DNA from: Carboxylicivirga caseinilyticus | GTDB lineage: Bacteria; Bacteroidota; Bacteroidia; Bacteroidales; Marinilabiliaceae | Assembly (NCBI GenBank): GCA_025499705.1 | Contig: JAFMVE010000052.1 | Coordinates: 1 to 39,800 of the forward strand | Direction: 5' to 3' | Length of the DNA: 39,800 nucleotides | Shown here: in pieces, positions 603 through 39,799 of the stretch | Layout: the number at the start of each line of letters is the position of its first letter | Numbering within the stretch: the stretch's first letter is position 1 | Notes under the pieces: generated by a model | Databases searched by the model: none | What the model was told of the DNA's origin: nothing | Seen by the model: the letters and a program-made list of their open reading frames with translations, nothing else | Position numbers and translations under genes: made by a program

Positions 603-3600
603 ATGAATTCATCTTCCCAAATAAAAGGATACACTTTTGTTTTATCCATTTTTTTACTTCTAAATACACTATCTGTAAATAGCCAAATCAAGATTAATGA
701 ATTTGTTTCATCTAACGTAACAGGTTTAAGTGATGACGATGGTGATTTTCCGGATTGGATAGAACTATTTAACACTTCAACTTCTCCAATTAATTTAGCT
801 ACTTATTATTTATCTGATGACATTTCGGATACAACCAAATGGAATATACCAGACATTCAACTACCTGGTCAATCACATTTATTAGTATTTGCTTCTGGAA
901 AAGACAGAACGGACTTAGTTAATGAGTGGTATACCATTATTGATAAAGGGGATAGTTTTAACTACCTCGTACCAACCCAGGAACCTGATGCCTCATGGAG
1001 AACACTTGGGTTTGATGACTCATCATGGTCAACAGGCCCCAGTGGTTTTGGATATGGAGATGATGATGACGCAACCGTTATTGGCACTACTATGAGTGTA
1101 TTTGTTCGTAAAACCTTTTCAATCGAAGATACAAGTAATATTGCACAGGCTGTTCTGCATATGGATTACGACGATGGCTTTGTTGCGTATATTAATGGCA
1201 TTGAAATAGCGCGTGATAATCTGGGTACACCAGGAACAATTATTCCATACAACCAAGGTAGTGATACCTATGATCATGAAGCAAGAATGTATCAAGGACT
1301 GGCTCCAAATGAATTTCCATTACTCAATTGGTCAGGTTTTTTAAAGGAAGGCGAAAATGTAATAGCTATTCAGGTACATAATCACAGCACAACATCTTCA
1401 GATATTACCTGCATTCCATTTCTTTCACTGGGTTTAAGAAATGCACAAGGACACACAGCCTCTGAATATCTTGAATTACCAAAATCGTACTTACACACAA
1501 ATTTTAAGATAAAAGCTGAAGGTGAATCACTTTACCTTTTTAATAATAAAACTTTTGTAGATTCTATTGGAGCAACCAACCTAAATGCAGACATTTCCTT
1601 TGGTAGAAGAACTGATGGTAATTCTCAATGGGTCTATTTTGGGACTCCTACACCTTCAAGTGCCAACAGTGGTGATTATGCCACAACTTTAAATACCGAT
1701 TCGGTGCATTTTTCTGTGGCAGGAGGAAAACATGCTTCTTCTGTAACCTTATCACTTTCAAATCCTGATAATCCATCTTCAATTATCTATTATACAACTG
1801 ATGGATCGGTTCCTACGGTATCAAGTAAGCTTTATAGTGCTGCCTTTAACATTAGCACAACCTCCATTATTAGAGCTCGTGTTATTGATACAGGTAAATT
1901 AGCCGGACCAGTAGTATCGAATACTTATATTATTGGAGAATCACACACATTACCAATTGTTAGTATTTCAACCGATCCTGCAAATTTATGGGATTATTAT
2001 ACAGGAATTTATGTGATGGGACCAAATGCCGAAGCAGGTAATCCTTATTTTGGAGCCAACTTCTGGATGGATTGGGAGAAACCTGTTCACTTTGAATACT
2101 ATGATAAAAACAATATTAAGCAGATAGATCAGGGTGCAGGATTAAAAATCTATGGAGCCTGGTCAAGGGCCAATCCTCAAAAATCTCTGGCATTATATGC
2201 TCGTAAAGAATATGGTGACGGATCTTTTAGTTACAAGTTTTTCAATAACAGAGAAAATGATAAGTTCGAAGCTTTGGTTCTCCGTAATTCGGGTAACGAC
2301 TTCTACAGCACCCATTTTCGTGATGCATTAATCTCACATGTGATGGATCCTTTAGAATTGGAAACTCAGGGATTTCAACCAACTGTATTATATTTAAATG
2401 GAGAGTATTTTGGTATAATTAATTTGCGAGAGAAAATTAATGAACATTTTATTTCTGATCATACCTATATCAATTCCGAAACCGTTAATATTCTCCAAAA
2501 TGGTGGAGAGGTTGTTCAGGGAGTCAATACAAAATACGAAGAGTTTCTAAATTTTATCAATACCACTAATTTGAGTACTGATACAAACTATGAAAAGGTT
2601 AAAAATTATATTGATGTAGATAATTATATCGATTACATTTTAGCTCAGACTTTTATTGACAACAGAGACTGGCCGGGTAATAATATCAAATTTTGGAATA
2701 CTACGAGCAATAAAAGTCGTTTCCGTTGGATTTTGTTTGATACAGACTTTGGTTTTAGTTTATACGGTTCTACAAATTACAATTACAACACCTTATCGTA
2801 CGCATTAGTCGACAATGGTCCAGACTGGCCTAATCCACCATGGTCAACGCTTGTTTTCAGAAAGTTAAAAACCAACACAAAGTTTAAAGAGCAATTTGTA
2901 AAAAGAGCTAAACACTATTTAAATACTTGTTGGAGTATCGGTGTTATGAATGCAAAGGTCGACTCTATTAAACAGCTTTATAGCTCCGAGATAGTTGATC
3001 ATTGTACCAGATGGGGTTTTAATTACACCGACTGGAACAATGAAGTTATCAAATTAAAAAACTTCGCGGGTAATCGTCCTTATTACTTTGAGAAGTATTT
3101 ACAGGAAGTATTTGGCTATACACAAAAGGTATTGGTAAATCTGGATGTTTCGAATAACATGGGATTTATTAAAGTGAATAAACGAAACATAACCGGATTC
3201 CCATATTCTGATGATTATTACAATAATTCAGAGATTGAATTGATTGCTATCCCTAATCCTGGTTATAGATTTGTGGGTTGGACCGGAACTTATACTTCGG
3301 AATACAGAAGAATAGCACCAAAATTATCTGGAAACATCTCATTAACAGCCGTATTTGAAGCAGCTACAGATGATGATGTTAATGTAGTATTTAATGAAGT
3401 ATTTTATAAATCATCAGAGACGATGAAACCGGGTGACTGGGTGGAGTTATACAATGCTGGTAATACAAGTGTTAACTTGTTAAACTGGACATTCAGTGAT
3501 ACACAAAAAGACTCAGCTATGCAAATTGATAAGTCAATTCTACTTGCTCCGGATGAATACATTGTTTTGTGTAAAGACCTGGAGAAATTTAAGACTACTT

Positions 3601-4151
3601 ATCCAATGGTTAACAATGTAGTTGGCGAGTTTGAATTTGGATTAAGTAGTACTGGTGACTATTTAAGACTTTATAACAGCAGTAATAAGTTAATTGATTT
3701 TGTAGATTATTTCCCAAGTGGATCATGGCCAAGCGATGCAAACGGCACAGGAGCTTCTGCTGAATTAATCGATCCTGAAACTGACAATTATCTGGGTAAA
3801 AACTGGGAAGCCTCTATTGATGGAGGTACACCTGGTGAAGCTAACCGTACACACGCCAGCCTTGGTATTTTCACTCCTTCTAGAAGTTTGGATGCAAATC
3901 TGCAATGCGTGCCTAATCCATTTGTTGATCAGGCAAATGTATATTTCAATGCAACAAAAGAAGGAAATTACTACCTTGAAATATCCAGTCTGACTGGAAC
4001 AAAAGTTTATCAAAGTAATAATCTATTCTATTTTGAGGGAGCACAACAAATAGATGTTCACTTAGATAATAAACTTCCTCAAGGAGTTTACATTTTAACC
4101 TTATTCGGACAAGGCAAACAACAAAGCATTAAAATTGTAATAACTAACTAA
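603..4151 (+). CDS. T9SS-secreted CotH kinase / lamin-tail multidomain protein
   Basis: A 1182-residue exported protein. Residues 1-28 are a signal peptide ending NSQ. A lamin-tail domain begins at 29-100 and appears to resume at about 298-355, interrupted by a galactose-binding-like module (101-297, with SWRTLGFDDSSW). A chitobiase C-terminal-like beta domain follows (365-432, YYTTDGSVPT). A CotH kinase domain spans about 449-830 and contains NRDWPGNN (687-694) and DTDFGF (713-718). An InlB B-repeat-like segment (842-918), a second lamin-tail domain (925-1085) and a type A T9SS sorting domain (1101-1182, VPNPF) complete it. CotH proteins are secreted protein kinases in known cases. Here the likely place is the cell surface, by T9SS. 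It leads the cassette that runs to 6705, with the next gene 5 bases downstream. The substrate is unknown. Confidence 0.85.
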   Translation: MNSSSQIKGYTFVLSIFLLLNTLSVNSQIKINEFVSSNVTGLSDDDGDFPDWIELFNTSTSPINLATYYLSDDISDTTKWNIPDIQLPGQSHLLVFASGKDRTDLVNEWYTIIDKGDSFNYLVPTQEPDASWRTLGFDDSSWSTGPSGFGYGDDDDATVIGTTMSVFVRKTFSIEDTSNIAQAVLHMDYDDGFVAYINGIEIARDNLGTPGTIIPYNQGSDTYDHEARMYQGLAPNEFPLLNWSGFLKEGENVIAIQVHNHSTTSSDITCIPFLSLGLRNAQGHTASEYLELPKSYLHTNFKIKAEGESLYLFNNKTFVDSIGATNLNADISFGRRTDGNSQWVYFGTPTPSSANSGDYATTLNTDSVHFSVAGGKHASSVTLSLSNPDNPSSIIYYTTDGSVPTVSSKLYSAAFNISTTSIIRARVIDTGKLAGPVVSNTYIIGESHTLPIVSISTDPANLWDYYTGIYVMGPNAEAGNPYFGANFWMDWEKPVHFEYYDKNNIKQIDQGAGLKIYGAWSRANPQKSLALYARKEYGDGSFSYKFFNNRENDKFEALVLRNSGNDFYSTHFRDALISHVMDPLELETQGFQPTVLYLNGEYFGIINLREKINEHFISDHTYINSETVNILQNGGEVVQGVNTKYEEFLNFINTTNLSTDTNYEKVKNYIDVDNYIDYILAQTFIDNRDWPGNNIKFWNTTSNKSRFRWILFDTDFGFSLYGSTNYNYNTLSYALVDNGPDWPNPPWSTLVFRKLKTNTKFKEQFVKRAKHYLNTCWSIGVMNAKVDSIKQLYSSEIVDHCTRWGFNYTDWNNEVIKLKNFAGNRPYYFEKYLQEVFGYTQKVLVNLDVSNNMGFIKVNKRNITGFPYSDDYYNNSEIELIAIPNPGYRFVGWTGTYTSEYRRIAPKLSGNISLTAVFEAATDDDVNVVFNEVFYKSSETMKPGDWVELYNAGNTSVNLLNWTFSDTQKDSAMQIDKSILLAPDEYIVLCKDLEKFKTTYPMVNNVVGEFEFGLSSTGDYLRLYNSSNKLIDFVDYFPSGSWPSDANGTGASAELIDPETDNYLGKNWEASIDGGTPGEANRTHASLGIFTPSRSLDANLQCVPNPFVDQANVYFNATKEGNYYLEISSLTGTKVYQSNNLFYFEGAQQIDVHLDNKLPQGVYILTLFGQGKQQSIKIVITN

Positions 4152-4156
4152 AACTC

Positions 4157-4555
4157 ATGAAAAAAATCGGAATCATACTACTATTGATGATTAGCCTGAT
4201 GGCCTGCGAAAAGGGAGCCGGAGAAGGTGGTACCTCTAAAATATGTGGTAAAGTGATTGTTGAAGAATATAATATTGACTTCACGTATCTAAGAGCTTCC
4301 TATCCTGCCCAGGCATATGATGTATATATCATTTATGGTGATGAGCCTTACTTTGGAGATAAGATAGAAACTAATTATGATGGCTATTTTGAATTTAATT
4401 ATCTGAGAGAAGGTGACTATACAATTTATGCTTATTCAAAAGATAAAACCCTTGATTATAATATGACCTCGGAACTTACTATTGTTGAAAGACAAGTAAG
4501 TATAACTGAGAAAGATCAGGAAATTATTGTTGAAGATATGATTGTACTAGATTAG
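4157..4555 (+). CDS. Small lipoprotein with carboxypeptidase-regulatory-like fold
   Basis: A 132-residue protein with a lipoprotein signal. The hydrophobic stretch IGIILLLMISLMAC ends in a lipobox, with Cys17 as the predicted lipidated residue. The mature part reads like a single transthyretin-like or CarboxypepD-regulatory beta sandwich: TNYDGYFEFNYLREGDYTIYAY is the usual 'G.f.f..l..G.Y.l.ay' pattern. It starts 5 bases after the CotH gene and ends 4 bases before the DUF2490 gene, so co-transcription is near certain. It probably sits on the periplasmic face of a membrane or at the surface as an accessory of the CotH protein. That role is inferred from position only. Confidence 0.75.
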   Translation: MKKIGIILLLMISLMACEKGAGEGGTSKICGKVIVEEYNIDFTYLRASYPAQAYDVYIIYGDEPYFGDKIETNYDGYFEFNYLREGDYTIYAYSKDKTLDYNMTSELTIVERQVSITEKDQEIIVEDMIVLD

Positions 4556-4559
4556 GGCT

Positions 4560-5288
4560 ATGAAACAAAGGTTTTATATAATTGTCCTGTTATTACTATC
4601 AGTAAAAACCATTGATGCTCAGGTTGAGGATTTTGTTACGTGGTGGAACTTTACGGTGAAAGGAGAAATAAGCAAGAAATTAAATTATTCTTTTGAACCA
4701 GAGTTACGTTTCTTTGAAAACTCAAGTCAGCTAAGTAGTTGGCAATCTGAATTCAGCCTTGATTATGAAGTAATAAAAAATCTGAATATCGGAGGTCTTT
4801 ATCGTTATACTGTTGATTACAGAACACCTGATTTTAATCGCAGGAGAAATCGTTTCTCATTATTTTTTAAATACGAAGTAAAAACCGGTCACTTTAGATG
4901 GCAATACAGAGGGATATGGCAAAACGATTTCACCAACGTAAATACCTCTGTTGATGGAAAAACAGATTTTATGGCCCACAGGCATAAGTTTGCTGTCAAG
5001 TTTAAGGATAAAGACTGGCCTGTTGATCCAAGTTTTGGAGTTGAATATATTTCAGCCTTAGCTCCTTCAAAAGATTTGGGAGAATGGAAACGAAGATGGT
5101 TTATAAACGTTGAAAGAGAAATAAATAAACGATTAAGCGCAAAGATATCTTATAAAAGACAAAACGAATTTGAAGTTTCAAACCCCGACCTGACAAACAT
5201 TCTTTTAGTTGGATTGGAATATGAACCAAAATTTTTGAAAAGAAAGAAGAAAAAGAACAAGAATAAAAATGAAGCTGCAACCGAATAA
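4560..5288 (+). CDS. DUF2490-type outer-membrane beta-barrel protein
   Basis: A 242-residue protein with a cleavable signal (VLLLLSVKTIDAQ). It continues as alternating aromatic and charged strands such as LNYSFEPELRFFENSS and HFRWQYRGIWQNDF, which is the usual look of the DUF2490 family of small Bacteroidota outer-membrane barrels. The C-terminus is a lysine-rich tail (KRKKKKNKNKN), unusual for a barrel and perhaps periplasmic. It begins 4 bases after the lipoprotein gene, and its last 20 bases overlap the start of the VTC gene. The function of DUF2490 is unknown. A pore, anchor or export role for the cassette would fit but is not shown. Confidence 0.75.
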   Translation: MKQRFYIIVLLLLSVKTIDAQVEDFVTWWNFTVKGEISKKLNYSFEPELRFFENSSQLSSWQSEFSLDYEVIKNLNIGGLYRYTVDYRTPDFNRRRNRFSLFFKYEVKTGHFRWQYRGIWQNDFTNVNTSVDGKTDFMAHRHKFAVKFKDKDWPVDPSFGVEYISALAPSKDLGEWKRRWFINVEREINKRLSAKISYKRQNEFEVSNPDLTNILLVGLEYEPKFLKRKKKKNKNKNEAATE

Positions 5289-6036
5289 TATATACGAGGA
5301 AATTGGCAATGTACTGCAAAATTTTTCACCCATTAGTCTGGATGAAATGAATCATGTAAGCCTGATGAATCGCATGGACACAAAATTCATTGTTCCTGTA
5401 TCCATTCTTCCTACTCTTTTAAGAGATATTGGGAAAGACTATAAAGTACTTGATATCAATAATGACAGAGTTTTCTTATATAAAACAGAATATTTCGATA
5501 CACAGAATTTTAGTATGTACGAAGCTCATCATAATGGTAAACTGAATCGTTTTAAAATCAGAAAACGAGAATATGTAGCCTCTGGCAAGCTGTTTTTGGA
5601 AGTAAAATACAAAAACAATAAACGACGTACTATTAAAAAAAGAATCGAGAAGGAAAATCATGAATTCTCAACTAATGAAAGTCATTTTATAGAAGAAAAC
5701 AGTCCATACAAAATGGAAGATCTGGAACTAAAGCTATCCAATGAATTTTATCGAATAACATTGGTGGGTAGTGACGAAAGGCTTACCATTGATTTTGATC
5801 TATCATTTACGCATGGCGATGATAAGGATGCCGACTTTCCTGAAGCTGCTATCATTGAATTTAAGCAATCAAGATTCAACATTAATTCGGCTGGAATGCA
5901 GGTTTTAAAAAAACATGGTATTCGACCGGAATCATGCAGCAAATATTGTATTGGGGCTGCTTCGATACACTCAAACATTAAGGCTAACCGTCTAAAACAA
6001 AAATTTGAGTTGCTCGAAAAATTCAAATTAAACTAA
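5269..6036 (+). CDS. VTC-domain polyphosphate polymerase-like protein
   Basis: A 255-residue soluble protein with the VTC (CYTH/TTM-like) tunnel fold. It shows NRMDTKFIV near the N-terminus, then RFKIRKREY, LFLEVKYKNNKRR and the acidic AAIIEFKQS strand near the C-terminus. These alternating basic and acidic strands line the tunnel in yeast Vtc4, which makes polyphosphate from ATP. Bacterial VTC proteins are often annotated as polyphosphate polymerases, but activity is unproven for most. The start overlaps the end of the DUF2490 gene by 20 bases, which suggests translational coupling. VTC genes beside DUF4956 and CotH genes recur in many bacteria (established association, function unsettled). 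Confidence 0.85.
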   Translation: MKLQPNNIYEEIGNVLQNFSPISLDEMNHVSLMNRMDTKFIVPVSILPTLLRDIGKDYKVLDINNDRVFLYKTEYFDTQNFSMYEAHHNGKLNRFKIRKREYVASGKLFLEVKYKNNKRRTIKKRIEKENHEFSTNESHFIEENSPYKMEDLELKLSNEFYRITLVGSDERLTIDFDLSFTHGDDKDADFPEAAIIEFKQSRFNINSAGMQVLKKHGIRPESCSKYCIGAASIHSNIKANRLKQKFELLEKFKLN

Positions 6037-6057
6037 CATTAACACAATAACCACTGT

Positions 6058-6705
6058 ATGGATTTTACAACCTCATCACTAATTAACTGGAGCGATTTTT
6101 TTAACTTATTAATACGGTTTTCATTCAATCTTTTAGTAACTGTAATTTTAGTACGAGTTTTATACTATCAGACTGCACGGCGTAAAGACTATTTGTTCAC
6201 ATTCTTACTTATTGGTACCATTGTTTTTCTTTTATGTTTCCTACTTGAAAGTGTGAAACTACAGCTAGGTTTTGCCTTAGGACTATTTGCCATTTTCGGA
6301 ATAATCAGATACCGAACCACACAAATTCCTATTAAAGAGATGACCTATTTATTCCTAACCATTGGAATTGCTGTCATCAATGCTTTAAGTAGCGACAATG
6401 TAAGCTATATTGAGCTGGGCTTTACCAACTTAGCCATTTTAGGTATAACATATGGTTTAGAAAGAGTTTGGTTACTAAAACACGAATCCAGCAAATTGAT
6501 TGTATACGAGAAGATTGAATTAATAAAGGCTGGTAAACGAAAAGAGTTAATTGAAGATTTGAGAGAACGCACTGATTTACCAATTCACAGAATCGATATT
6601 GGCAAGATAAATTTCTTGCGAGATACTGCACAAATCATTGTTTACTATTATACTGATGATGTAAGCAATGTAAACGTAAGCGAGATGGATGACGATGATG
6701 ATTAA
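6058..6705 (+). CDS. DUF4956 integral membrane protein
   Basis: A 215-residue protein with about four membrane segments in its first 135 residues (for example LLVTVILVRVLYY, LLIGTIVFLLCFLL, LGFALGLFAIFGIIRYRT, TNLAILGITYGLE). A cytoplasmic C-terminal domain of about 75 residues follows and ends in a run of aspartates. The FGIIRYRTTQIPIKEMTYLF stretch is characteristic of DUF4956. The gene lies 21 bases after the VTC gene and is the last of the cassette, followed by a strong terminator. DUF4956 proteins are regularly encoded beside VTC-domain proteins. A membrane channel or a partner for the VTC enzyme is a plausible role but has not been established. Confidence 0.85.
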   Translation: MDFTTSSLINWSDFFNLLIRFSFNLLVTVILVRVLYYQTARRKDYLFTFLLIGTIVFLLCFLLESVKLQLGFALGLFAIFGIIRYRTTQIPIKEMTYLFLTIGIAVINALSSDNVSYIELGFTNLAILGITYGLERVWLLKHESSKLIVYEKIELIKAGKRKELIEDLRERTDLPIHRIDIGKINFLRDTAQIIVYYYTDDVSNVNVSEMDDDDD

Positions 6706-6723
6706 ATCACAATATGTCAAAAG

Positions 6724-6755
6724 AATGCCTTGCTGAACCGCAAGGCATTTTTGTT
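6724..6755. terminator. Intrinsic terminator between convergent genes
   Basis: AATGCCTTGC (6724-6733) pairs perfectly with GCAAGGCATT (6740-6749) across a 6-base loop, and the T-run continues to 6752. It ends the CotH cassette. A weaker T-run on the opposite strand means it may also serve the cobalamin operon that converges on it. Confidence 0.85.
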
Positions 6756-24187: not shown

Positions 24188-25849
24188 TTAACTCGCAAAA
24201 ACTTCTTTATACAACTGACTAAAAATATGTTCTGCTGTTTCACCTCGACATATTGGAACCAAATGAGAAGGAAATGAACCATAAAACTCAAAGAAATGCT
24301 TAATGGTTGTTGGTGAGGTAAAAACAACACCTGTAAATTCATCCAGATTATGTCTTACTGCATTTTCGGGAATCATATTCTCATATAAACAAAGTTCCTT
24401 TACTTTATTACCCAGTAATCTTAACCCCTCAGGCAACTTCTCAAATCGTTGAACCGAACAAGGCAACAAAATCCGTTCTCCTCTCACCTCATCATTCTCA
24501 AAAACCTTTAACATGGCCGCAATATTATTTTGTGAAGTCTCCGGAGGAATTCGAAGTCCATATTTCTTTAATTTGGCTGAGGTAGAACGACCGATAGATG
24601 AAATTTTAAGTCCATGCAAAGCTCTGGCATCCAATCCCAGATTATATAAAGCTTTAAAAAACTCCTTAACAGCAAAAGGACTCGCAAAAATCAACCGGTC
24701 AAATGTGTTGAGATTTTTTAGTAAATCAATTTCACAATGATTAGGTTCTATTGATTTGATGTCAATCATCGGATTATGAACAACCATACCTCCATCCTTA
24801 TAATCATTTACATCAGAACCGGTATACAGCCATTTCTGACCAAGAGATTTCACATTTTCAGTTGCTGTATGTCCAACAATCACCAGGCAAGGTGCAGGTA
24901 GCAATTCTTCTTCACGCTGCAACTGATCAAGTGTATATCGTTTAATTTCTTTTGCTGGCAAAGATGCATTTCGTATGGCTGCCACAGGAATATTAGCAGG
25001 CCAACCTTCCTTAATCAACCTTTTCGCCCATTTCTTTTGTTGTGACGCCGCCATATAAAACACCAATGTATCAGCGTGCGGCAGGTTATTATGTAAGGCA
25101 TCATGTCCTAAAGCAAATGCCACCGACGTACTTAATCCTCTTGATGTAAGAGGAATAACACCATCTGCCGCTGCTGCCAATGCAGCAGTAATGCCCGGCA
25201 CTATTTCAGCTTCAATAAATCGTTGATCTAAATAATGATATTCTTCTCCACCTCTTCCAAAAATAAGCGGATCACCACCTTTTATACGTACCACTTTATT
25301 TCCGCTAATCGCAGCCTGATAAAGTAGTTCGTTTATATTTTCCTGTCGTGCACTATGCTGACCTTTGCGTTTACCGACATAACGTTTTTCACCCTTAAAC
25401 TGATCTAAATAAGTCTGGTCAATCAGATCATCATAGAATATTACATCAGCTTCCTGTAATAAACGATGAGCTTTAATAGTAAGTAGCTCCGGATTACCCG
25501 GACCAAATCCTACAATATGAACCTGACCATATTTTCGACGCTGATCAATTGACCAAAAATCGAACTGCAATTCCTTTAGCGAAATAAGAACCAACGTCTC
25601 TTTCTCAGGTCCGTTTAATACAGCCTGTATTTTTACCCCCTCGGGCAAAGTCACATCAATCTTATCCCGTTGAACTAAAACCAAATCAACATCTCCCATG
25701 TACAACATCATCAGCTCTTCTGTTCCCAAACGCTTTTTGGCATTGGCAAAATTCCACTGAAGTTTAGTCTGAGCAGGCAATGCTGATTCAATCTCAGGCA
25801 AAACATTATCCAAAACCGGCTCATAGCTTTTTAAAATGACTTCGTACAT
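24188..25849 (-). CDS. cobA-hemD: Uroporphyrinogen-III methyltransferase / uroporphyrinogen-III synthase fusion
   Basis: A 553-residue fusion for siroheme synthesis. Residues about 109-345 are the SAM-dependent methyltransferase (VHIVGFGPGNPELLT, VVRIKGGDPLIFGRGGEE, VPGITAALAAAA, PLTSRG) that makes precorrin-2. About 368-553 is uroporphyrinogen-III synthase (RLIFASPFAVKEFF, GVVFTSPTTIKHFFEF). Residues 1-108 are unusual. GTEELMMLYMGDVDLVLVQ and VTLPEGVKIQAVLNG resemble part of domain 1 of porphobilinogen deaminase (HemC), but the conserved catalytic Asp is not kept in a simple alignment and the dipyrromethane Cys domain is absent. This looks like a non-catalytic remnant. It is the last gene of the cysJ-cysI block, 27 bases after the dehydrogenase gene. 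Confidence 0.9.
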   Translation of the reverse strand: MYEVILKSYEPVLDNVLPEIESALPAQTKLQWNFANAKKRLGTEELMMLYMGDVDLVLVQRDKIDVTLPEGVKIQAVLNGPEKETLVLISLKELQFDFWSIDQRRKYGQVHIVGFGPGNPELLTIKAHRLLQEADVIFYDDLIDQTYLDQFKGEKRYVGKRKGQHSARQENINELLYQAAISGNKVVRIKGGDPLIFGRGGEEYHYLDQRFIEAEIVPGITAALAAAADGVIPLTSRGLSTSVAFALGHDALHNNLPHADTLVFYMAASQQKKWAKRLIKEGWPANIPVAAIRNASLPAKEIKRYTLDQLQREEELLPAPCLVIVGHTATENVKSLGQKWLYTGSDVNDYKDGGMVVHNPMIDIKSIEPNHCEIDLLKNLNTFDRLIFASPFAVKEFFKALYNLGLDARALHGLKISSIGRSTSAKLKKYGLRIPPETSQNNIAAMLKVFENDEVRGERILLPCSVQRFEKLPEGLRLLGNKVKELCLYENMIPENAVRHNLDEFTGVVFTSPTTIKHFFEFYGSFPSHLVPICRGETAEHIFSQLYKEVFAS

Positions 25850-25876
25850 AATATGAATGGTTTTAATGGTTACTAA

Positions 25877-26359
25877 TTAAAAACGAGACTCTTCTTTAGA
25901 CTTTACTTCCGGAAGTTCTCCATTCTCTCCTAATTCTCTTATTTTATTTCTCCAGTTAATAGCTGCATAAACATTTTCACCATTTGAACTGACAGCTACC
26001 GTCATTTGATCTTTCTTATAGATGGCAGGTGAAATAAAATCGCAGTTGGAAGGTTTATCAACAACATTTACCAGACATCTGTAATTTAAAGCATCAGCCC
26101 TTATCTGACTATTGAGTTCGTGGTTATTGGTTGCTGCATATACCAATAGATGACCTTTTAAATCGGCAGGTTCGTAAGCTTTTTCAACGATCTCGATAAA
26201 TCCTCTTTCCCTGATTTCATCAACAACATCTAACGCAATTATTTTAATATTATGTGTAAACTTTTCGAGAGATTCTATTTTGTGGATAGCCACTTTTCCT
26301 CCTCCAATTATTAAAATGGACTCTCTTTCTATGTCAATTGCAACCGGTAAAAAATTCAT
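25877..26359 (-). CDS. sirC: Precorrin-2 dehydrogenase (siroheme synthase N-terminal type)
   Basis: A 160-residue NAD-dependent enzyme that oxidises precorrin-2 to sirohydrochlorin. The Rossmann motif IIGGGKVA is at about residues 18-24, and the conserved NVVDKPSNCDFISPA block is at about 98-112, where Asp101 matches the key Asp of CysG/Met8. It is shorter than full CysG or Met8 because the C-terminal helical domain is missing, so iron insertion may need another protein. It lies 22 bases after the DUF2061 gene and before cobA-hemD, so it feeds siroheme to the sulfite reductase encoded upstream in the same block. Confidence 0.88.
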   Translation of the reverse strand: MNFLPVAIDIERESILIIGGGKVAIHKIESLEKFTHNIKIIALDVVDEIRERGFIEIVEKAYEPADLKGHLLVYAATNNHELNSQIRADALNYRCLVNVVDKPSNCDFISPAIYKKDQMTVAVSSNGENVYAAINWRNKIRELGENGELPEVKSKEESRF

Positions 26360-26381
26360 ATCTCAATACATTAAATAATTT

Positions 26382-26612
26382 CTAAATCTGATATTCCGGA
26401 TCTGCCATCTTTTCTCGTCCCAGCTTAATTCTGTTCCATACACGCTCGTGTAAATAATAAAGCAACAGTTTAGTAAAAACCTCTACACCACTTATGGAAG
26501 CTGCAATTCCCACTTTCCCTGTTATCAGGTACGAAACCAGAAAAGTATCTATCGTTCCGGTTATTCGCCATGAGATAGTTTTAACAATGCTCCTGTATCT
26601 TTTTTCCTTCAT
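26382..26612 (-). CDS. DUF2061 small membrane protein
   Basis: A 76-residue protein with two hydrophobic segments (SWRITGTIDTFLVSYLITG and GIAASISGVEVFTKLLLYYLHERVW). The pattern 'R.i.KtiSWRi.Gt.dTf..s...tG....A..i...E..tK..LYy.HER.W' is the DUF2061 signature. The function is unknown. DUF2061 genes recur beside sulfate and sulfite assimilation genes, which fits this position between cysI and sirC with gaps of 9 and 22 bases. A role in transport or in housing the reductase is a guess. Confidence 0.85.
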   Translation of the reverse strand: MKEKRYRSIVKTISWRITGTIDTFLVSYLITGKVGIAASISGVEVFTKLLLYYLHERVWNRIKLGREKMADPEYQI

Positions 26613-26621
26613 AGCTGCAGA

Positions 26622-28337
26622 TTATTTTACCACTTTTATCTCATTAGCCGGACTAATTATCTTTTTTCGAATGACAAAATCTCCGAAGCGTTCTCCGCTT
26701 AATCTTTCCTCAGAATATTGTTTGAACAATGGTTCCAACAAGCTTAAGATTTCATCTTCATCAACCATCTCTTTGTAAAGAGTATTCAATCGATTTCCTG
26801 AGAAACCAGCTCCCAGATACAAGTTATACCTTCCAGGTGCTCGTCCTACCAATCCAATCTCACCTAAAAACGGACGGCCACATCCATTTGGACAACCAGT
26901 CATTCGAATAAGAATATCATCATTCGTTAGCCCGGTTTTCGCAAGAAGCAAATCCAGTTTATCAATGAGCTTTGGCAAGTAACGCTCTGCCTCAGCAAAA
27001 GCCATGGTACAGGTATTTAGTGCTACACAAGCAATGGCATTCTTTCGTAAACCACTCAATTTTTCTCCTTCTCCAATCCCGTATTCCACTAAAATGGTTT
27101 GAATCTTTTCTTTCTTACTTTCTGCTATATTGCCCAAAACCAACCCCTGGTTTCCAGTTAAACGAAAATCACAGGCATGTAATTCAGCCACTTTTCGTAA
27201 TCCTTCCTTTAATTTTAAGGTTTCGGTATCTTTTATTCTGCCATGCTCAATAAACAAACCTGTAAACCACTTACCATCGGCAGCTTTTTTCCATCCAAAA
27301 ACATCACCATTACTCTCAAAATGATACGGTTTTGATGCTTCCAGCTCAAACCCCAATCGTGTTTCTAAAACATTTACAAAAGCATCAATACCAATTCGAT
27401 CAATTGTATACTTCAAACGGGCCAGTTTACGATTTTCACGATTGCCAAAATCACGTTGCACCTTAACGATTTCCTCAACCACATCCAGAGCTTTATCCTT
27501 CGTTACAAAACCAATAACATCAGCCAAACGAGGATAGGTTTCGGCAAGACCGTATGTTTTACCCATTCCACCGCCAACTGCTACATTATATCCAATTAAC
27601 TGATCCTTTTCAACAATGGCTATTAATCCTATATCATTGGCAAAAACATCGGTATCGTTATAGGGCGGAACAGCTATGGCAATTTTAAATTTACGCGGCA
27701 AATAAGTTTTTCCATAAATTGGCTCCTCATCCTGCTCACCTCCGGCTATTAATTTCTGATTCAACCATATCTCGTGATATGCAGTTGTTTTGGGCAACAA
27801 ATGGTCACTGATAGTATTGGCAAATGCTGCCAGTTCAACAACAACAGGAGATAAGCCTTCATTAGAAGTACTCATCACATTTCGGTTCACATCGCCACAG
27901 GCAGCAATACTGTCGAGCAAAGCATCATTGATACCTTTCATTGTCTGACGAAGATTTCGTTTAATGATACCATGTAATTGAAAAGCCTGGCGTGTTGTTA
28001 ACTTCAATGTACCATTACCATATTGATCTGATAATTTATCAAAGGCAATCCATTGCTGTGATGATGAAACGCCAGCCGGCATACGTGCCCTGATCATAAA
28101 ACTGTATAATGGCTCAAGCTTTTGACGCTTTCGTTCATCATCCAGATCTCTATCTGTTTGCTGATAACTACCATGAAACTTGATCAGTTGGGTATCATCC
28201 GGAGCAATGGCTCCTGTTATAGAATCATCAAGGCTTTCAACTAATGTTCCTCTCAGATAATTACTTTTAATTTTAATATGCTCAACCTCCGATGGTTTCC
28301 ATTGCTGCGGTTGGGGTATATTTTTAATTTTGGTCAT
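26622..28337 (-). CDS. cysI: Assimilatory sulfite reductase hemoprotein subunit
   Basis: A 571-residue siroheme and 4Fe-4S enzyme that reduces sulfite to sulfide with six electrons from CysJ. The cluster ligands are visible near the C-terminus as Cx5C (CVALNTC) and Cx3C (TGCPNGCGRP). Siroheme-contacting segments such as GNGTLKLTTRQAFQLHG and GDVNRNVMST lie in the N-terminal half, and GLVGRAPGRYNLYLG follows the second Cys pair as in E. coli CysI. The length matches the family. The start lies 28 bases after the stop codon of cysJ. Confidence 0.96.
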   Translation of the reverse strand: MTKIKNIPQPQQWKPSEVEHIKIKSNYLRGTLVESLDDSITGAIAPDDTQLIKFHGSYQQTDRDLDDERKRQKLEPLYSFMIRARMPAGVSSSQQWIAFDKLSDQYGNGTLKLTTRQAFQLHGIIKRNLRQTMKGINDALLDSIAACGDVNRNVMSTSNEGLSPVVVELAAFANTISDHLLPKTTAYHEIWLNQKLIAGGEQDEEPIYGKTYLPRKFKIAIAVPPYNDTDVFANDIGLIAIVEKDQLIGYNVAVGGGMGKTYGLAETYPRLADVIGFVTKDKALDVVEEIVKVQRDFGNRENRKLARLKYTIDRIGIDAFVNVLETRLGFELEASKPYHFESNGDVFGWKKAADGKWFTGLFIEHGRIKDTETLKLKEGLRKVAELHACDFRLTGNQGLVLGNIAESKKEKIQTILVEYGIGEGEKLSGLRKNAIACVALNTCTMAFAEAERYLPKLIDKLDLLLAKTGLTNDDILIRMTGCPNGCGRPFLGEIGLVGRAPGRYNLYLGAGFSGNRLNTLYKEMVDEDEILSLLEPLFKQYSEERLSGERFGDFVIRKKIISPANEIKVVK

Positions 28338-28365
28338 GATTTATATTTAAGTGTGGTAAATGAGG

Positions 28366-30129
28366 TTAGTAAACATCCTCCTGATAACGATTCAACTTTC
28401 GTAATTCAAATAGTTTCTCTTCTGCCTGCTCTTTATTCAATCCACCTTCATTTTGAAGAATCTCGAGGAAAGCATTTCTAACGTCTTTTGCCATATTGTT
28501 TTTATCACCACACACATAAATGTAGGCTCCATCCTCTAACCACTTATATACTTCTTTGCTTTTCTGAAGTAATCGATGCTGAACATATACTTTCTCTTCC
28601 TGATCGCGTGAGAATGCCACATCAATTTTATTAATCACACCGTTTGACCGATGTTTTAACCATTCTGCCTGATACAGAAAATCAGTTTCAAAATGTTGAT
28701 CTCCATAAATCAACCAGTTTTTACCCTCAGCACTTTGCTCAGCCCGTTCCTGAATAAATGATCTGAATGGAGCAATGCCTGTTCCGGGGCCAATCATTAT
28801 TATTGATTTATCCTGTTCAGGTAACTTAAAACCTTCATTTCTTTTTACCCTTACTCCCACTTTCTCTTCCACTTCGATACGATCGGCCAAAAACACAGAA
28901 CAAGCTCCTTCATGCAACCTGTCATTTTTTTCATAACGAACAGCTCCCACAGTTATATGCACTTCATCACCAACCTCCGATTGAGCTGAAGAAATAGAAT
29001 AAGCCCGTGGCATAAAAGATCGAAGAGAGTCGACCAAATGCTGAGCATTCAGTTTGAAATCATAATCAGTTATCACATCAAACAAATCGCGACCTTCGAG
29101 ATAAACATCCAATTCATCAATGTTATCAAGTAAAGTATCAAGGTCTGATTCATTCACATAAGCCGATAACTTTTTAATAACGGGCAATGTCACAACTGTT
29201 ATTTCTCGATGGTATTTTAATGCATCAGCCAATGATACCGTTTCATCCTTTATTTGAACTTGCTGCTTTTTATCAAGGCTAAGCTTGGTAATAATCTGAT
29301 TAACCAGCTCTTCATTATTAATGGCAAAAACTTCCAAAGCATCACCTGGTTCATATTCCAATCCCGAATCTTCCAATGAAAGCTCTATGTGATAGGTTTC
29401 TTTCTTTGATCCTCGGCCATTTAGATTCACCTTGTCAAGCACTTCAGCCTGATGAATTTTATTAGCTGTAGATACAATTGTACTTTTTGAAGAAATCTGA
29501 GGTTTAGAAACGGTATTTATTGACCCAAACAAATCCAAAGTACCGGCAACAACAGTCTCAAGCTGATCCAAAAAATCAACATCAAGTAAAACTGCTTCGG
29601 CCAATGCTTTAGCTCCTCTTGAAATGAGTCGGTCATGAAAATCGAGACCCGTCTGACAGAACTTTTTATAACTACTGTCTCCAAGAGCAATCACTGCAAA
29701 ATTAACACCTGATAAATCGCCAGCTCTTTTTGTATCCAGAACCTTGTATAATTCTTCAGCTGCTGCAGGAGGTTCTCCTTCACCGTGTGTAGAAACAACA
29801 ATTATTACATTTGATTCATCTTTCAGTTTCTTCACTTTGTAATCAAGCATATTACTCACCTCGACTTTCACCCCAATTAAACTTGCTTGATTTTGTATTG
29901 CATTTGCAACAATATTTGAATTTCCCGAGTGTGATCCCACAAGGATAGTTAAGGTAGATTCAGCAATTGATTGTGTTACATCAACAATGGTTCCTTCATT
30001 TTGAAGTCCAATACCAGATAAGTATCCTCCTAACCAAATCAACTGATCTTTTGATAACTCTTTAACCAGTTCATCTGCCTTCCCCAATAATTCGACTGGC
30101 AAAACATTGCTACCTGCTATATTTGACAT
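28366..30129 (-). CDS. cysJ: Assimilatory sulfite reductase flavoprotein subunit
   Basis: A 587-residue diflavin reductase that passes electrons from NADPH through FAD and FMN to CysI. Flavodoxin domain: LTILVGSHSGNS, VVSTHGEGEPP and ALGDSSYKKFC. FAD domain: PRAYSISSAQ. NADPH domain: IMIGPGTGIAPFRSFIQER and YVCGDKNNMAKDV. The C-terminus YQEDVY matches the end of E. coli CysJ. It is the first gene of the block. Its roughly 235-base leader holds several hairpins (30160-30244) and no exact TAnnTTTG box, so the regulation deserves attention. Confidence 0.95.
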   Translation of the reverse strand: MSNIAGSNVLPVELLGKADELVKELSKDQLIWLGGYLSGIGLQNEGTIVDVTQSIAESTLTILVGSHSGNSNIVANAIQNQASLIGVKVEVSNMLDYKVKKLKDESNVIIVVSTHGEGEPPAAAEELYKVLDTKRAGDLSGVNFAVIALGDSSYKKFCQTGLDFHDRLISRGAKALAEAVLLDVDFLDQLETVVAGTLDLFGSINTVSKPQISSKSTIVSTANKIHQAEVLDKVNLNGRGSKKETYHIELSLEDSGLEYEPGDALEVFAINNEELVNQIITKLSLDKKQQVQIKDETVSLADALKYHREITVVTLPVIKKLSAYVNESDLDTLLDNIDELDVYLEGRDLFDVITDYDFKLNAQHLVDSLRSFMPRAYSISSAQSEVGDEVHITVGAVRYEKNDRLHEGACSVFLADRIEVEEKVGVRVKRNEGFKLPEQDKSIIMIGPGTGIAPFRSFIQERAEQSAEGKNWLIYGDQHFETDFLYQAEWLKHRSNGVINKIDVAFSRDQEEKVYVQHRLLQKSKEVYKWLEDGAYIYVCGDKNNMAKDVRNAFLEILQNEGGLNKEQAEEKLFELRKLNRYQEDVY

Positions 30130-30159
30130 TTACTTATAATTTAGATAATACAATCCCAT

Positions 30160-30244
30160 GACGATAACTCGTCGACAAAAAAATTTTAGAAGTAAAGAGC
30201 AAACCGACTTGTTTGCAAATGGATTATGAAGCCCCTCAGGGCAT
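30160..30244 (-). promoter_or_regulatory. Hairpin-rich leader of cysJ
   Basis: Three short stems lie in the leader read on the minus strand. GCCC-4-GGGC is near 30231-30242, GCAAAC-6-GTTTGC at 30199-30216, and GACGA-4-TCGTC at 30160-30173. A run of seven T (30175-30181) precedes the last stem. The fold is only a paper prediction, and no known riboswitch class was recognised. Confidence 0.3.
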
Positions 30245-30314
30245 TCGTTTGGAGAGAGCAGAAATGGATATAATCGAACTATTCATAACGGTGTATTTAT
30301 GGTTAATGAATGCT

Positions 30315-30358
30315 ATTCAAAGGACATTTGTAATGTGGTTAAAAAATGCCCTTTGAAT
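30315..30358 (-). terminator. Long inverted repeat just after cysK
   Basis: ATTCAAAGGACAT (30315-30327) faces ATGCCCTTTGAAT (30346-30358) with one mismatch in 13 and an 18-base loop. It starts 10 bases past the cysK stop codon. There is no T-run after it, so it is an unusual terminator if it is one. A 3'-stabilising hairpin or a protein site would also fit. Confidence 0.4.
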
Positions 30359-30367
30359 CTGATATCC

Positions 30368-31291
30368 TTAATCGATATTAAATGTGCTCAAATAGCGTTC
30401 GCCTGTATCCGGTAGTACAACTACAACTCTTTTACCAGCATTCTCAGGACGTTTTGCAACCTCTAATGCAGCCCAAAGAGCAGCACCTGAAGAATATCCA
30501 CAAAGAATACCTTCGCATACCGCAGCATGATGTGCTGTTTCAATGGCATCCTCATTTGATACACGAATCACTTCGTCATAAACTTCGGTATTTAAAACAC
30601 CCGGAACAAAACCCGCTCCAATACCCTGAATTTTATGCGGTCCAGGATTTCCACCCGATAAAACAGGTGAAGATTCTGGCTCAACAGCCACCACTTTTAC
30701 GTTCGGATTCTTCTGTTTTAAAACTTCGCCAACACCGGTAATCGTACCTCCTGTTCCGATACCTGCAACAAAAATATCAACTTTACCATCCGTATCATTC
30801 CAAATTTCCAAGGCAGTTGTATTTCTGTGAACCTCAGGATTGGCAGCATTATTAAACTGCTGAGGAATAAATGCTTTAGGCAACTCTTCAGATAATTCAT
30901 TTGCCTTTTCAATGGCTCCCTTCATGCCTTTTTCAGCTGGTGTAAGAACCAGCTCAGCACCAAATTTTTTCAGCAACTTTCTACGTTCGATACTCATGCT
31001 TTCGGGCATTGTAAGAATCAGGCGGTAACCCTTCACAGCTGCTACAAAAGCCAAACCTACTCCAGTATTTCCACTGGTTGGTTCAACCAATACTGTGTCT
31101 TTATCTATCTTTCCGTTTTTCTCGGCATCAGTTATCATTGCAAATGCAATACGATCTTTTACCGAACTTGCCGGATTAAAAAATTCCAACTTGGCAACTA
31201 CCTCTGCTGAAGCTCCTTCAGCTAACTTATTTACTTTTACCAACGGTGTGTTACCTATCAAGGCGGTAACGTTTTCAGCTATTTTGCTCAT
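30368..31291 (-). CDS. cysK: Cysteine synthase (O-acetylserine sulfhydrylase)
   Basis: A 307-residue PLP enzyme that joins sulfide to O-acetylserine to give cysteine. Lys45 in [11 protein letters not shown] is the Schiff-base lysine. PTSGNTG (71-77) binds the substrate carboxylate. [14 protein letters not shown] holds the PLP phosphate, and CGYSSGAAL and [13 protein letters not shown] close the fold. The length and motifs are those of CysK rather than cystathionine beta-synthase. It starts 31 bases after the Rrf2 regulator gene and is probably co-transcribed with it. It is the acceptor step for the sulfide made by cysJI, transcribed just downstream. Confidence 0.96.
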
Positions 31292-31322
31292 GGTTTTAAT
31301 ATTTTATGGTTATCACTTTTTT

Positions 31323-31742
31323 TTAGATATAATACATGATGTGATCATTTTCTTCTTTATAGTGCGCCTTTAGCTTATCAAGCGTAAAAGTTTTCAAAAC
31401 CTCATCATATTCGTCCTTGACTTCCTGGAGAAATATAGCCGAAGCTATATTGGCATTATTTCCTTCTTTTTCTATAGGCTTTTCCATTTTCTCATCCAAA
31501 ACACTCATTAAATCATACAGTGTAATATCCTTTAATGGCCTCGCCAAAAAATAACCTCCTCCGGCTCCTCTTTTAACATCAACAACTCCTTTCTTGCGAA
31601 GGATAACTGCAATAGCCTCAAGGAATTTCAACGGCAGATCTTCATTCTCAGCTATCTCCGCCACTCCTCTCAGTCTACCTTCAGGCAGAATTGCTAGAGC
31701 CAGAACAAATCTTAATCCATAATATACCTTCTTTGGAAACAT
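31323..31742 (-). CDS. Rrf2-family regulator, CymR-like
   Basis: A 139-residue winged helix-turn-helix regulator of the Rrf2 family: YGLRFVLALAILPEG, IAENEDLPLKFLEAIAVILRKKGVVDVKRGAGGGYFLARP. It has no cysteine at all, so it cannot carry the iron-sulfur cluster of IscR, RsrR or NsrR. The best functional comparison is Bacillus CymR, a cluster-free Rrf2 repressor of sulfur genes that senses O-acetylserine through a complex with CysK. Here cysK is the next gene, 31 bases downstream. That role is an inference. Two related palindromes lie upstream of its promoter and are candidate operators. Confidence 0.88.
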   Translation of the reverse strand: MFPKKVYYGLRFVLALAILPEGRLRGVAEIAENEDLPLKFLEAIAVILRKKGVVDVKRGAGGGYFLARPLKDITLYDLMSVLDEKMEKPIEKEGNNANIASAIFLQEVKDEYDEVLKTFTLDKLKAHYKEENDHIMYYI

Positions 31743-31769
31743 ATCCTACTTATTTACTATTTACATAGG

Positions 31770-31801
31770 CAAATATCAATCAAAGTCTTATAAAAAACAA
31801 A
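31770..31801 (-). promoter_or_regulatory. Promoter of rrf2-cysK
   Basis: On the minus strand a TTTG -33 box (31798-31801) and GATATTTG (31770-31777, one base off TAnnTTTG) are separated by exactly 20 bases. The ATG lies 28 bases beyond the -7 box. Confidence 0.65.
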
Positions 31802-31803
31802 TG

Positions 31804-31822
31804 ATTAATCCGGTATTAATCC
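31804..31822. repeat. Tandem ATTAATCC direct repeat
   Basis: ATTAATCC occurs at 31804-31811 and again at 31815-31822, an 11-base period or about one DNA turn, immediately upstream of the rrf2 -33 box. The second copy runs into the 21-bp palindrome at 31819. Confidence 0.6.
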
Positions 31823-31839
31823 TATTTTTACAATAGGAT
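31819..31839. promoter_or_regulatory. Candidate operator palindrome 1
   Basis: ATCCTAT and ATAGGAT form a perfect inverted repeat with a 7-base spacer, 17 bases upstream of the rrf2 -33 box. The geometry fits a dimeric winged-helix regulator. It shares the form ATCmTAT-N7-ATAkGAT with the palindrome at 31892-31918. Confidence 0.5.
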
Positions 31840-31891
31840 ATAACACAAGACTTTAATTTTCAAATAAATAAATATTTTTCATCAATGAATT

Positions 31892-31918
31892 TTAATCATA
31901 TGCTATTGATATGATTAA
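31892..31918. promoter_or_regulatory. Candidate operator palindrome 2
   Basis: TTAATCATAT and ATATGATTAA are perfect 10-base arms with a 7-base spacer. The central 21 bases (31895-31915) match palindrome 1 except for one symmetric change. It lies 20 bases past the end of the Omp85 gene but has no T-run on either side, so a terminator is less likely. Confidence 0.5.
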
Positions 31919-31938
31919 GTAAATTAAGATCAAAGAAA

Positions 31939-39469: not shown

Positions 39470-39488
39470 CATCCGCAATCACAAACAC

Positions 39489-39585
39489 GGGTAAGTCTCA
39501 TACGACTAGCTCCTGTTGAATTCCCCCAGGGCTTGACGGCAGCAAGGGTAGACGGTTGTAGCAGTGCGATGTGGGTAGCTTACCC
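39489..39585 (+). ncRNA. ffs: Small signal recognition particle RNA (4.5S type)
   Basis: About 97 nt. The ends pair (GGGTAAG at 39489-39495 with CTTACCC at 39579-39585). The middle carries the SRP helix-8 core in the Bacteroidota form, CCAGGGCTTGACGGCAGC...AAGGGTA with a GACGG-type apical region (about 39524-39554), which binds Ffh. The RNA guides ribosomes making membrane proteins to FtsY. No terminator follows; tRNA-Thr begins 5 bases later, so the 3' end is probably made by processing. The exact 5' and 3' ends are estimates. Confidence 0.9.
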
Positions 39586-39590
39586 ACCCT

Positions 39591-39664
39591 GCCGGTGTAG
39601 CTCAGCTGGCTAGAGCAGCTGATTTGTAATCAGCAGGTCGGGGGTTCGAGTCCCTCCACCGGCT
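39591..39664 (+). tRNA. tRNA-Thr (anticodon TGT)
   Basis: A 74-nt cloverleaf. The acceptor GCCGGTG pairs with CACCGGC, the D-arm is GCTC...GAGC, the anticodon loop is TTTGTAA on stem GCTGA/TCAGC, and the T-arm is GGGGGTTCGAGTCCCTC. The discriminator is T64 of the line (39664), and CCA is not encoded. Confidence 0.97.
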
Positions 39665-39716
39665 CCGATAAGTAACCAAAGGGTTACCGGAAAATTTTAA
39701 AATATTGAATGCAATT

Positions 39717-39799
39717 GGGGAGATACCAAAGTGGCCAACTGGGGCGGACTGTAACTCCGCTGACTTATGTCTTCGTAGGTTCGAATCCTGCTCTCCCCA
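39717..39799 (+). tRNA. tRNA-Tyr (anticodon GTA)
   Basis: An 83-nt class II tRNA. GGGGAGA pairs with TCTCCCC, the anticodon loop is CTGTAAC on stem GCGGA/TCCGC, a long variable arm follows (about 39757-39777), and the T-loop is GGTTCGAATCC. The discriminator A is at 39799. The window ends at the next base, so an encoded CCA cannot be checked. Confidence 0.97.

Follow-up and report, generated by a model that had tools for sequence, protein, structure and literature searches.

Genes for CotH, polyphosphate polymerase and DUF4956 proteins have been described side by side in Gram-positive bacteria. In streptococci, clostridia and bifidobacteria, they adjoin pelDEADAFG and, together with DUF4832, make up a Pel accessory set (cotH/polyphosphate polymerase/DUF4956/DUF4832) for which regulation by phosphorylation was suggested (excerpts of PMC7112168). 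The preliminary description of the locus analyzed here had called the joint recurrence of CotH, VTC and DUF4956 known, and for Gram-positive Pel operons, which that description did not mention, it is indeed in print (same excerpts of PMC7112168). The window, that is, the whole 39,800-nucleotide stretch of Carboxylicivirga caseinilyticus DNA, has, like the Pel set, CotH, VTC-type and DUF4956 genes next to one another but, unlike that set, also encodes a lipoprotein and a DUF2490 barrel, and its CotH carries a T9SS sorting domain. It is this diderm architecture that is new, the link between CotH, VTC and DUF4956 having been published already; in open-access papers, no link of the lipoprotein, DUF2490 or HlyD-type proteins to the set was found.

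A Pel operon at this locus was rejected, given that no pel-type gene was found among the 5 cassette products and the products of 20 of the 28 other ORFs of at least 120 aa. A broader alternative, rather unlikely in our estimate, is that the cassette serves as an accessory module in making an exopolysaccharide or surface matrix, regulating or modifying that polymer or matrix, with CotH phosphorylating matrix proteins and polyphosphate being incidental. Besides the pel adjacency in Gram-positives, it draws on the Clostridium perfringens NELoc-2 locus, in which VTC, a membrane protein and CotH are encoded near a glycosyltransferase (excerpts of PMC2879425); on a Pseudobutyrivibrio plasmid cluster that sits amid glycosyltransferase, acyltransferase and pyruvyl transferase genes; and on the carbohydrate-binding Cthe_2159 proteins that stand in for CotH at a second locus of the window's genome and in Paenibacillus. 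However, no polysaccharide synthase lies beside the cassette among the same 20 scanned ORFs, the sole glycosyltransferase among them is ∼31 kb away, most of the Bacteroidota loci listed lack a recurrent polysaccharide neighbor, and the role of VTC and DUF4956 is left unexplained.

Layout and recurrence of the cassette

Five co-directional genes occupy positions 603 to 6705 of the window, followed by a hairpin:

603..4151, + strand: CotH kinase-like protein, 1182 aa (ORF, Pfam)
4157..4555, + strand: lipoprotein without a Pfam model over the cut-off, 132 aa (ORF, family alignment A7)
4560..5288, + strand: DUF2490 predicted outer-membrane barrel, 242 aa (ORF, Pfam 1.6e-14)
5269..6036, + strand: VTC-domain polyphosphate polymerase-like protein, 255 aa (ORF, Pfam 6.1e-22)
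6058..6705, + strand: DUF4956 membrane protein, 215 aa (ORF, Pfam 2.4e-52)
6721..6752, + strand: terminator-like hairpin at the cassette end (13 pairs, then a T run)

The tight packing noted previously was borne out, with spacings of 5, 4, −20 and 21 bases, the negative value being a 20-base overlap of the VTC gene start with the DUF2490 gene end. The claim that one terminator ends the set held in part: the DUF4956 stop is followed by a hairpin of 13 pairs and a T run, and the gene beyond it is convergent, but the hairpin is a plausible rather than a proven terminator because the terminator scan returned 4 sites in total against a shuffle mean of 4.5. Compared with a same-genus copy, dN/dS is 0.060 for CotH, 0.042 for DUF2490 and 0.019 for DUF4956, with dS saturated (2.98 to 4.08). 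The products are predicted for the cytosol, inner membrane, periplasm or outer membrane, and surface, in agreement with the distribution proposed earlier.

The exact five-gene order was found in 5 of 14 same-genus genomes (the window's own, G148, G150, G152 and G153), and because it recurs in genomes with different flanks, the arrangement exceeds chance. Across the 148-genome phylum sample, DUF4956 is present in 29/29 genomes with VTC versus 16/119 without, and CotH in 29/29 versus 31/119; counted by genus, the one-sided Fisher values for association with VTC are 2e-12 and 4e-8, respectively, with kinship ignored. Among 40 relatives, DUF4956 accompanies VTC in 28/28 genomes and occurs in 3/12 others. 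The rarity of co-occurrence that would have spoken against a single system was not seen: of the 35 VTC places in the phylum sample, 31 have DUF4956 no more than 1.5 kb away, and 2 more have it within 5 kb. Two same-genus genomes (G156 and G158) carry VTC without an adjacent DUF4956, which in both is ∼21 kb off on the same contig. Bacillota and Actinomycetota plasmid records show VTC followed by DUF4956 in all six cases, with CotH in the cluster in four.

Among 80 named loci, which are the best 80 of a longer list and thus lean to window-like DUF4956, VTC is part of the gene run in 71, DUF2490 in 47 and the lipoprotein in 30, whereas CotH is found in 16 runs and the complete five in 12; contig edges cut short 32 of these runs, and the set includes near-duplicates (for example, L126/L131, L096/L097 and L158/L159), with L082 and L239 appearing to be one record. 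The HK and LytTR labels derive from one seed each, the HK seed matching His_kinase (3.6e-23). Mirror-tree correlations of 0.61 for VTC/DUF4956 (81 loci), and of 0.77 for VTC/DUF2490 and 0.69 for DUF4956/DUF2490 (48 loci), were reached by 0/500 permutations and do not separate vertical inheritance.

A random gene neighborhood was rejected on co-occurrence and adjacency, and together with the shared order these support the earlier view of the five genes as one system: judged from sequence, they very probably form one functional unit. The genes do travel together, as proposed, but as a modular set rather than a fixed five. Their distribution establishes VTC and DUF4956 as a near-obligate pair, the predicted inner core, and CotH, the usual partner, or another exported protein would be the payload of the modular system.

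That the genes are merely co-transcribed, with VTC-DUF4956 storing phosphate or acting as a regulator and the lipoprotein, DUF2490 and CotH each doing something else, is very unlikely. The outer pair and CotH can sit apart from VTC (G041 and G045), and CotH also occurs in VTC-less genomes, as such a reading would have it; however, the order is kept in five genomes despite differing flanks, the association by genome persists where the genes are unlinked, and all 5 of the 148 genomes with a strong lipoprotein match also possess VTC, DUF4956 and CotH.

The VTC-DUF4956 pair and the outer modules

The VTC domain spans residues 34 to 234 of 255 (78.8 bits versus a cut-off of 23), and its profile matches yeast Vtc4 (3g3q) at 2.5e-20. 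Window residues R98, R100 and E197 align with yeast Vtc4 R264, R266 and E426, the residues mutated to inactivate Vtc4 (excerpts of PMC9911596), and are kept in 134/134 distinct relatives; all 134 share the same residue at 11 of the 16 active-site-type positions examined (rows with fewer than 150 aligned residues left out). With the active site conserved, a polyphosphate linkage of the cassette is plausible, and the alternative "nucleotide-linked" reading gained no support in this analysis. The genome also possesses a PPK1 gene, so VTC is not required for ordinary polyphosphate.

The likeness to the eukaryotic VTC complex extends from the catalytic VTC (TTM) domain to the pairing of that domain with a membrane protein bearing basic residues at the membrane; the yeast channel is lined by basic residues (excerpts of PMC9911596). 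An AlphaFold2 model of DUF4956 (mean pLDDT 85.4, pTM 0.72) predicts five helices (11 to 138) and a C-terminal beta-alpha-beta-beta domain (143 to 198). An R-x-R pair, Arg84 and Arg86, is invariant in 138/138 distinct relatives (rows with fewer than 120 aligned residues left out) and falls between model helices 70 to 86 and 92 to 110, probably on the cytosolic side by the positive-inside rule. Conversely, unlike its eukaryotic counterpart, the window VTC protein shows no SPX and no fused transmembrane domain, VTC being its only domain over the Pfam cut-off; the membrane part, if it is DUF4956, is a separate protein that is not detectably related to Vtc1, and the membrane concerned is the cell envelope rather than the vacuole. 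Comparison of DUF4956 with known folds, including membrane channels, gave no clear structural match.

The DUF2490 domain (54.5 bits versus a cut-off of 29.8) belongs to a putative porin family, TC 1.B.81 (excerpt of PMC4827864). The lipoprotein has no Pfam match over the cut-off (the best, fn3_3, scores 23.9 bits versus 24.4); it possesses an invariant Cys17 followed by G-x-G-G across the 25 members of its family alignment, is prealbumin/Ig-like by weak matches and pairs with DUF2490. Strong lipoprotein matches were found in 5/148 phylum genomes, with at most 28 first-look candidates scored per genome. Gene distributions establish the lipoprotein and DUF2490 as a predicted outer pair, separable from VTC-DUF4956. 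In Bacteroides thetaiotaomicron, as in the window, DUF4956 and DUF2490 genes adjoin (BT3498-BT3499), both tabled among iron-dependent changes (excerpt of PMC10434189). A Lys-rich DUF2490 tail, considered as a general polyphosphate-binding feature, was rejected: the window protein and its close relatives have it, but most family members do not.

Elsewhere among diderms, DUF2490 gives way to an HlyD-type fusion protein, an alternative absent from the preliminary description: across 126 loci, DUF2490 is present in 55, an HlyD-type protein in 29 and both in none, and 6 Gram-positive loci carry neither label. No periplasmic fusion protein gene was found among the five window genes or labelled in their run. 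The HlyD-type labels come from iterated models; of seven such proteins checked against Pfam, four passed an HlyD cut-off (L060, L068, L069 and L072), L054 matched only Biotin_lipoyl, L048 fell below the cut-off and L047 had no match. These HlyD/TolC-type export operons (L047 to L081, in the Bacteroidota phylum) share a VTC-DUF4956 or DUF4956 core with the window but, where the window has the lipoprotein and DUF2490, they possess a fusion protein of the periplasm and, in some cases, an OEP-like protein.

Such operons bear on a further alternative, in which DUF4956, as a general exporter subunit, cooperates with DUF2490 or HlyD/TolC-like parts to handle some substrate other than polyphosphate, either a small molecule or a polymer, and VTC is another TTM-type tunnel enzyme that makes or modifies this substrate. 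In 10 of 46 phylum loci, DUF4956 is accompanied by an HlyD-type protein and a 412-aa protein, and VTC is lacking; the 412-aa family matches OEP in 2 of 10 members (best 5e-5), and one locus (L072) combines DUF4956, HlyD_D23 and OEP (4.3e-17). The active-site residues of VTC, however, are those of a polyphosphate polymerase and are invariant, and VTC was found only in DUF4956 genomes in both samples (148 phylum genomes and 40 relatives), leaving this alternative unlikely.

The CotH protein and a proposed export pathway

From the N terminus, the CotH protein comprises a signal peptide-like start, LTD domains, a chitobiase-like C-terminal domain, CotH, Flg_new_2, LTD and a T9SS tail. The CotH domain covers residues 515 to 828 (Pfam 1.1e-43, 150.4 bits versus a cut-off of 23.8), and LTD (6.4e-24), CHB_HEX_C_1, Fn3_assoc and Flg_new_2 also exceed their cut-offs. 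A type A sorting domain at residues 1104 to 1180 matches Por_Secre_tail (1.6e-6, 28.7 bits versus 27) and TIGR04183 (28 bits versus 23); with the SprA gene present in the genome (2632.7 bits), it supports the previously claimed T9SS export of the protein, which is thus predicted to be exported.

With the CotH family profile (A5), the solved structure of spore coat protein H (5jd9) was hit at 1.4e-36; the window domain used as a single query sequence gave no match. Catalytic-type aspartates lie at residues 689 (N-x-D) and 713 (DTD), with aspartate in 47/50 and 50/50 CotH rows, respectively, from DUF4956 genomes (rows with fewer than 180 aligned residues left out). Through the 5jd9 alignment, and not the B. 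subtilis sequence itself, D689 and D713 are matched to D228 and D251 of B. subtilis CotH. The D228Q change inactivates CotH of B. subtilis (excerpts of PMC7821199). The window protein thus has in common with the Bacillus spore-coat kinase (same excerpts of PMC7821199) the CotH domain, the 5jd9 match and the conserved aspartates but differs in its predicted T9SS export and its flanking LTD and other adhesion-type domains.

Control searches in B. subtilis found CotH and neither VTC nor DUF4956. A contrast between cytosolic CotH without the pair, as in B. subtilis, and exported CotH with it was suggestive in 14 control genomes, but the rule fails in Bacteroidota, where 18 of 60 CotH genomes in the phylum sample lack DUF4956. 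The catalytic aspartates are kept in 22/22 CotH proteins examined from 16 of those 18 genomes, and the idea that exported CotH strictly depends on VTC was rejected.

In the polyphosphate-export reading that we prefer, the cytosolic VTC protein would use ATP to build polyphosphate where DUF4956 opens to the cytosol, and DUF4956 would thread the chain through the inner membrane, just as the eukaryotic VTC complex threads it into the vacuole. The lipoprotein and DUF2490 barrel would carry the chain over the outer membrane or retain it there. In other diderms, HlyD-type fusion proteins and a TolC-like protein would take the outer step, and Gram-positives would need none. The exported CotH would be a surface kinase-like enzyme that works with the phosphate polymer once it is delivered, the simplest case being that the polymer provides the phosphoryl groups with which CotH modifies surface proteins. 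That synthesis is coupled to export by DUF4956 has, on comparative grounds, about an even chance; the whole chain up to polyphosphate delivery outside falls slightly below that, and use of the exported polymer by CotH is doubtful. A little more doubtful still is the general form, in which VTC-DUF4956 is a polyphosphate synthase-translocase with interchangeable outer modules that supplies a phosphoryl donor to extracytoplasmic CotH, where ATP is scarce.

The phosphate source of CotH is stated to be unknown even in B. subtilis (excerpts of PMC7821199), and if the general form is true, the question would be answered for extracytoplasmic CotH enzymes. Should the pair export polyphosphate, it would be a bacterial machinery devoted to secreting this polymer, a parallel to the VTC complex of yeast, and a donor would become available for protein phosphorylation outside the cell. 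With an exchangeable outer-membrane partner, DUF2490 or HlyD-type, a vague co-occurrence would become a testable envelope pathway.

Cassette genes and same-genus copies

ORF calling confirmed the five genes that the preliminary description had placed in one cassette:

603..4151, + strand: CotH protein
4157..4555, + strand: lipoprotein
4560..5288, + strand: DUF2490 protein
5269..6036, + strand: VTC (polyphosphate polymerase-like) protein
6058..6705, + strand: DUF4956 protein

The CotH, DUF2490, VTC, and DUF4956 labels are Pfam matches over the cut-off. Besides its CotH domain, the CotH protein has domains of the LTD, chitobiase-like, and InlB-like kinds, together with a type A sorting domain of type IX secretion (T9SS), a system considered present in this genome (G000) because the SprA gene was found. 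The lipoprotein matched no Pfam family over the cut-off; its family (alignment A7) has an invariant Cys followed by G-x-G-G and is single (∼130 aa) or tandem (∼250 aa). A hairpin and T run lie 3' of the cassette; terminator-like sites, counted across the whole region, were not in excess. The downstream flanking genes are convergent to the cassette and resemble cobalamin genes, some through CobQ-type domains and the others in our reading. Elsewhere in the window, a siroheme/HemD fusion, sulfite reductase parts, and cysteine/methionine PLP enzymes (24188..34330) likely form a sulfur assimilation cluster, and a Bacteroidales small SRP RNA precedes two tRNA genes (39482..39799).

Fourteen genomes of the genus were searched, and five have the exact gene order, G000 and four others:

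G148 (locus L231): proteins 74 to 89% identical to those of the window; same flank
G150 (L239; L082 appears to be the same record): in L082, proteins 58 to 76% identical
G152 (L240): exact five-gene order
G153 (L242): exact five-gene order

None of three window flank proteins compared was matched in the flank of L082. G153 holds a second copy (L241) that lacks DUF4956. In the remaining genus members, VTC often accompanies a short CotH-like gene (∼345 to 360 aa), with DUF4956 elsewhere (for example, ∼21 kb from VTC in G156 and G158).

Co-occurrence across genomes

Among 148 genomes drawn evenly from the phylum, DUF4956 was found in 45, VTC in 29, and CotH in 60. DUF4956 was present in 29/29 genomes with VTC versus 16/119 without it, CotH in 29/29 versus 31/119, and CotH in 42/45 genomes with DUF4956 versus 18/103 without. 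By genus, the association with VTC gave 2e-12 for DUF4956 and 4e-8 for CotH in a one-sided Fisher test that ignores relatedness. In this sample, 31 of 35 VTC places lie within 1.5 kb of DUF4956 and two more within 5 kb; the other two are the third VTC gene of G000 and a fragment. Among 40 relatives, DUF4956 occurs in 28/28 VTC genomes versus 3/12 others, and CotH matches, some of them weak, in 23/28 versus 3/12. Among 14 control genomes, VTC and DUF4956 were both detected in Bacteroides ihuae, Corynebacterium glutamicum, and Methanosarcina acetivorans, and neither was detected in the other 11; CotH was found in C. glutamicum, M. acetivorans, and B. subtilis.

A tblastn search of plasmid records with one VTC protein identified six, all from Bacillota or Actinomycetota, in which VTC is followed by DUF4956 (6/6), with CotH close by in four; the Nonomuraea VTC is a tblastn match where the ORF caller picked another frame. 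None of the six loci received a DUF2490, lipoprotein, HlyD, or OEP label, as expected because these cells have one membrane. The order in a Planococcus maritimus plasmid (VTC, DUF4956, CotH, a 689-aa protein, a HEAT-repeat gene; L255) resembles the list reported for C. perfringens NELoc-2.

Architecture of DUF4956 loci

Runs were defined as the genes within four genes of DUF4956. In the 80 loci nearest the window's DUF4956 (the best 80 of a longer list, near-duplicates included, with 32 runs reaching a contig end), VTC is present in 71, DUF2490 in 47, the lipoprotein in 30 (29 of them beside DUF2490), CotH in 16, and all five in 12. The 46 further phylum loci have VTC in 32 runs, an HlyD-type protein in 29, DUF2490 in 8, and CotH in 7. 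No run contains both DUF2490 and an HlyD-type protein (0/126). One locus (L072) reads CotH, DUF4956, HlyD, OEP, VTC, LTD protein; G041 and G045 carry VTC on a different contig from the lipoprotein-DUF2490 pair, which twice adjoins CotH. Cthe_2159 takes the payload position in a second G000 locus and on a Paenibacillus plasmid. The loci are thus built from an inner VTC-DUF4956 pair, an outer lipoprotein-DUF2490 pair or HlyD alternative, and an exported payload.

Several other arrangements were observed. The second G000 locus (L074, contig C61) comprises a Cthe_2159 carbohydrate-binding lipoprotein, a histidine kinase, a response-regulator-like gene, VTC, DUF4956, and DUF2490. An operon of DUF4956, an HlyD-type protein, and a 412-aa protein without VTC is conserved in ten loci (L059-L061, L066, L067, L070, L071, L077, L079, and L080); OEP is matched by 2/10 members of the 412-aa family. 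A secreted ∼138-aa family, with a weak, below-cut-off HemS match, lies directly 5' of VTC in many Bacteroidales loci (L108:7799-8212 and 17 others). A short CotH-like family (∼340 to 365 aa; Pfam CotH match weak or absent) adjoins VTC and/or DUF4956 in L075 (contig C108 of G000), L045, L135, L140, L207, L212, L216, and L225, and is followed by a calcineurin-like phosphatase gene in L045 and L140. In L085 and other same-genus loci, a lone DUF4956 faces a LytTR-like gene; in L085, an SBF symporter-family gene precedes it.

Active-site residues and a possible polyphosphate role

Structures of yeast Vtc4 are matched by the VTC profile at 2.5e-20, with R98, R100, and E197 of the window protein aligned to Vtc4 R264, R266, and E426 (chain numbers 267, 269, and 429; offset 3), residues whose joint change was used to inactivate Vtc4 (PMC9911596). 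Eleven of 16 VTC positions checked are identical in 134/134 distinct relatives. The CotH protein aligns with 5jd9 (1.4e-36) and keeps aspartates D689 and D713. PPK1 is also encoded in G000.

The families, residues, adjacency, and co-occurrence of the cassette genes are direct observations. Mechanistically, the cassette would synthesize polyphosphate, which might pass through DUF4956, cross the outer membrane in a further step, and be used by CotH. Against this mechanism, the aspartates are intact in 22/22 CotH proteins examined from 16 of 18 CotH genomes without the VTC-DUF4956 pair, DUF4956 operons without VTC exist, and G176, G184, and B. ihuae have VTC without CotH. The main rival, an exopolysaccharide-accessory role, is suggested by Pel operons of Gram-positives (PMC7112168) and by Pseudobutyrivibrio clusters, and is compatible with part of the polyphosphate mechanism.

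PMC7112168 already groups CotH, a polyphosphate polymerase, and DUF4956 in Gram-positives. The open-access literature searched yielded no diderm version, lipoprotein family, DUF2490/HlyD exchange, or genome-level coupling, and the diderm cassette is thus a variant of the published grouping. We read it as a putative polyphosphate synthase-translocase with exchangeable outer parts that would serve the exported CotH protein.
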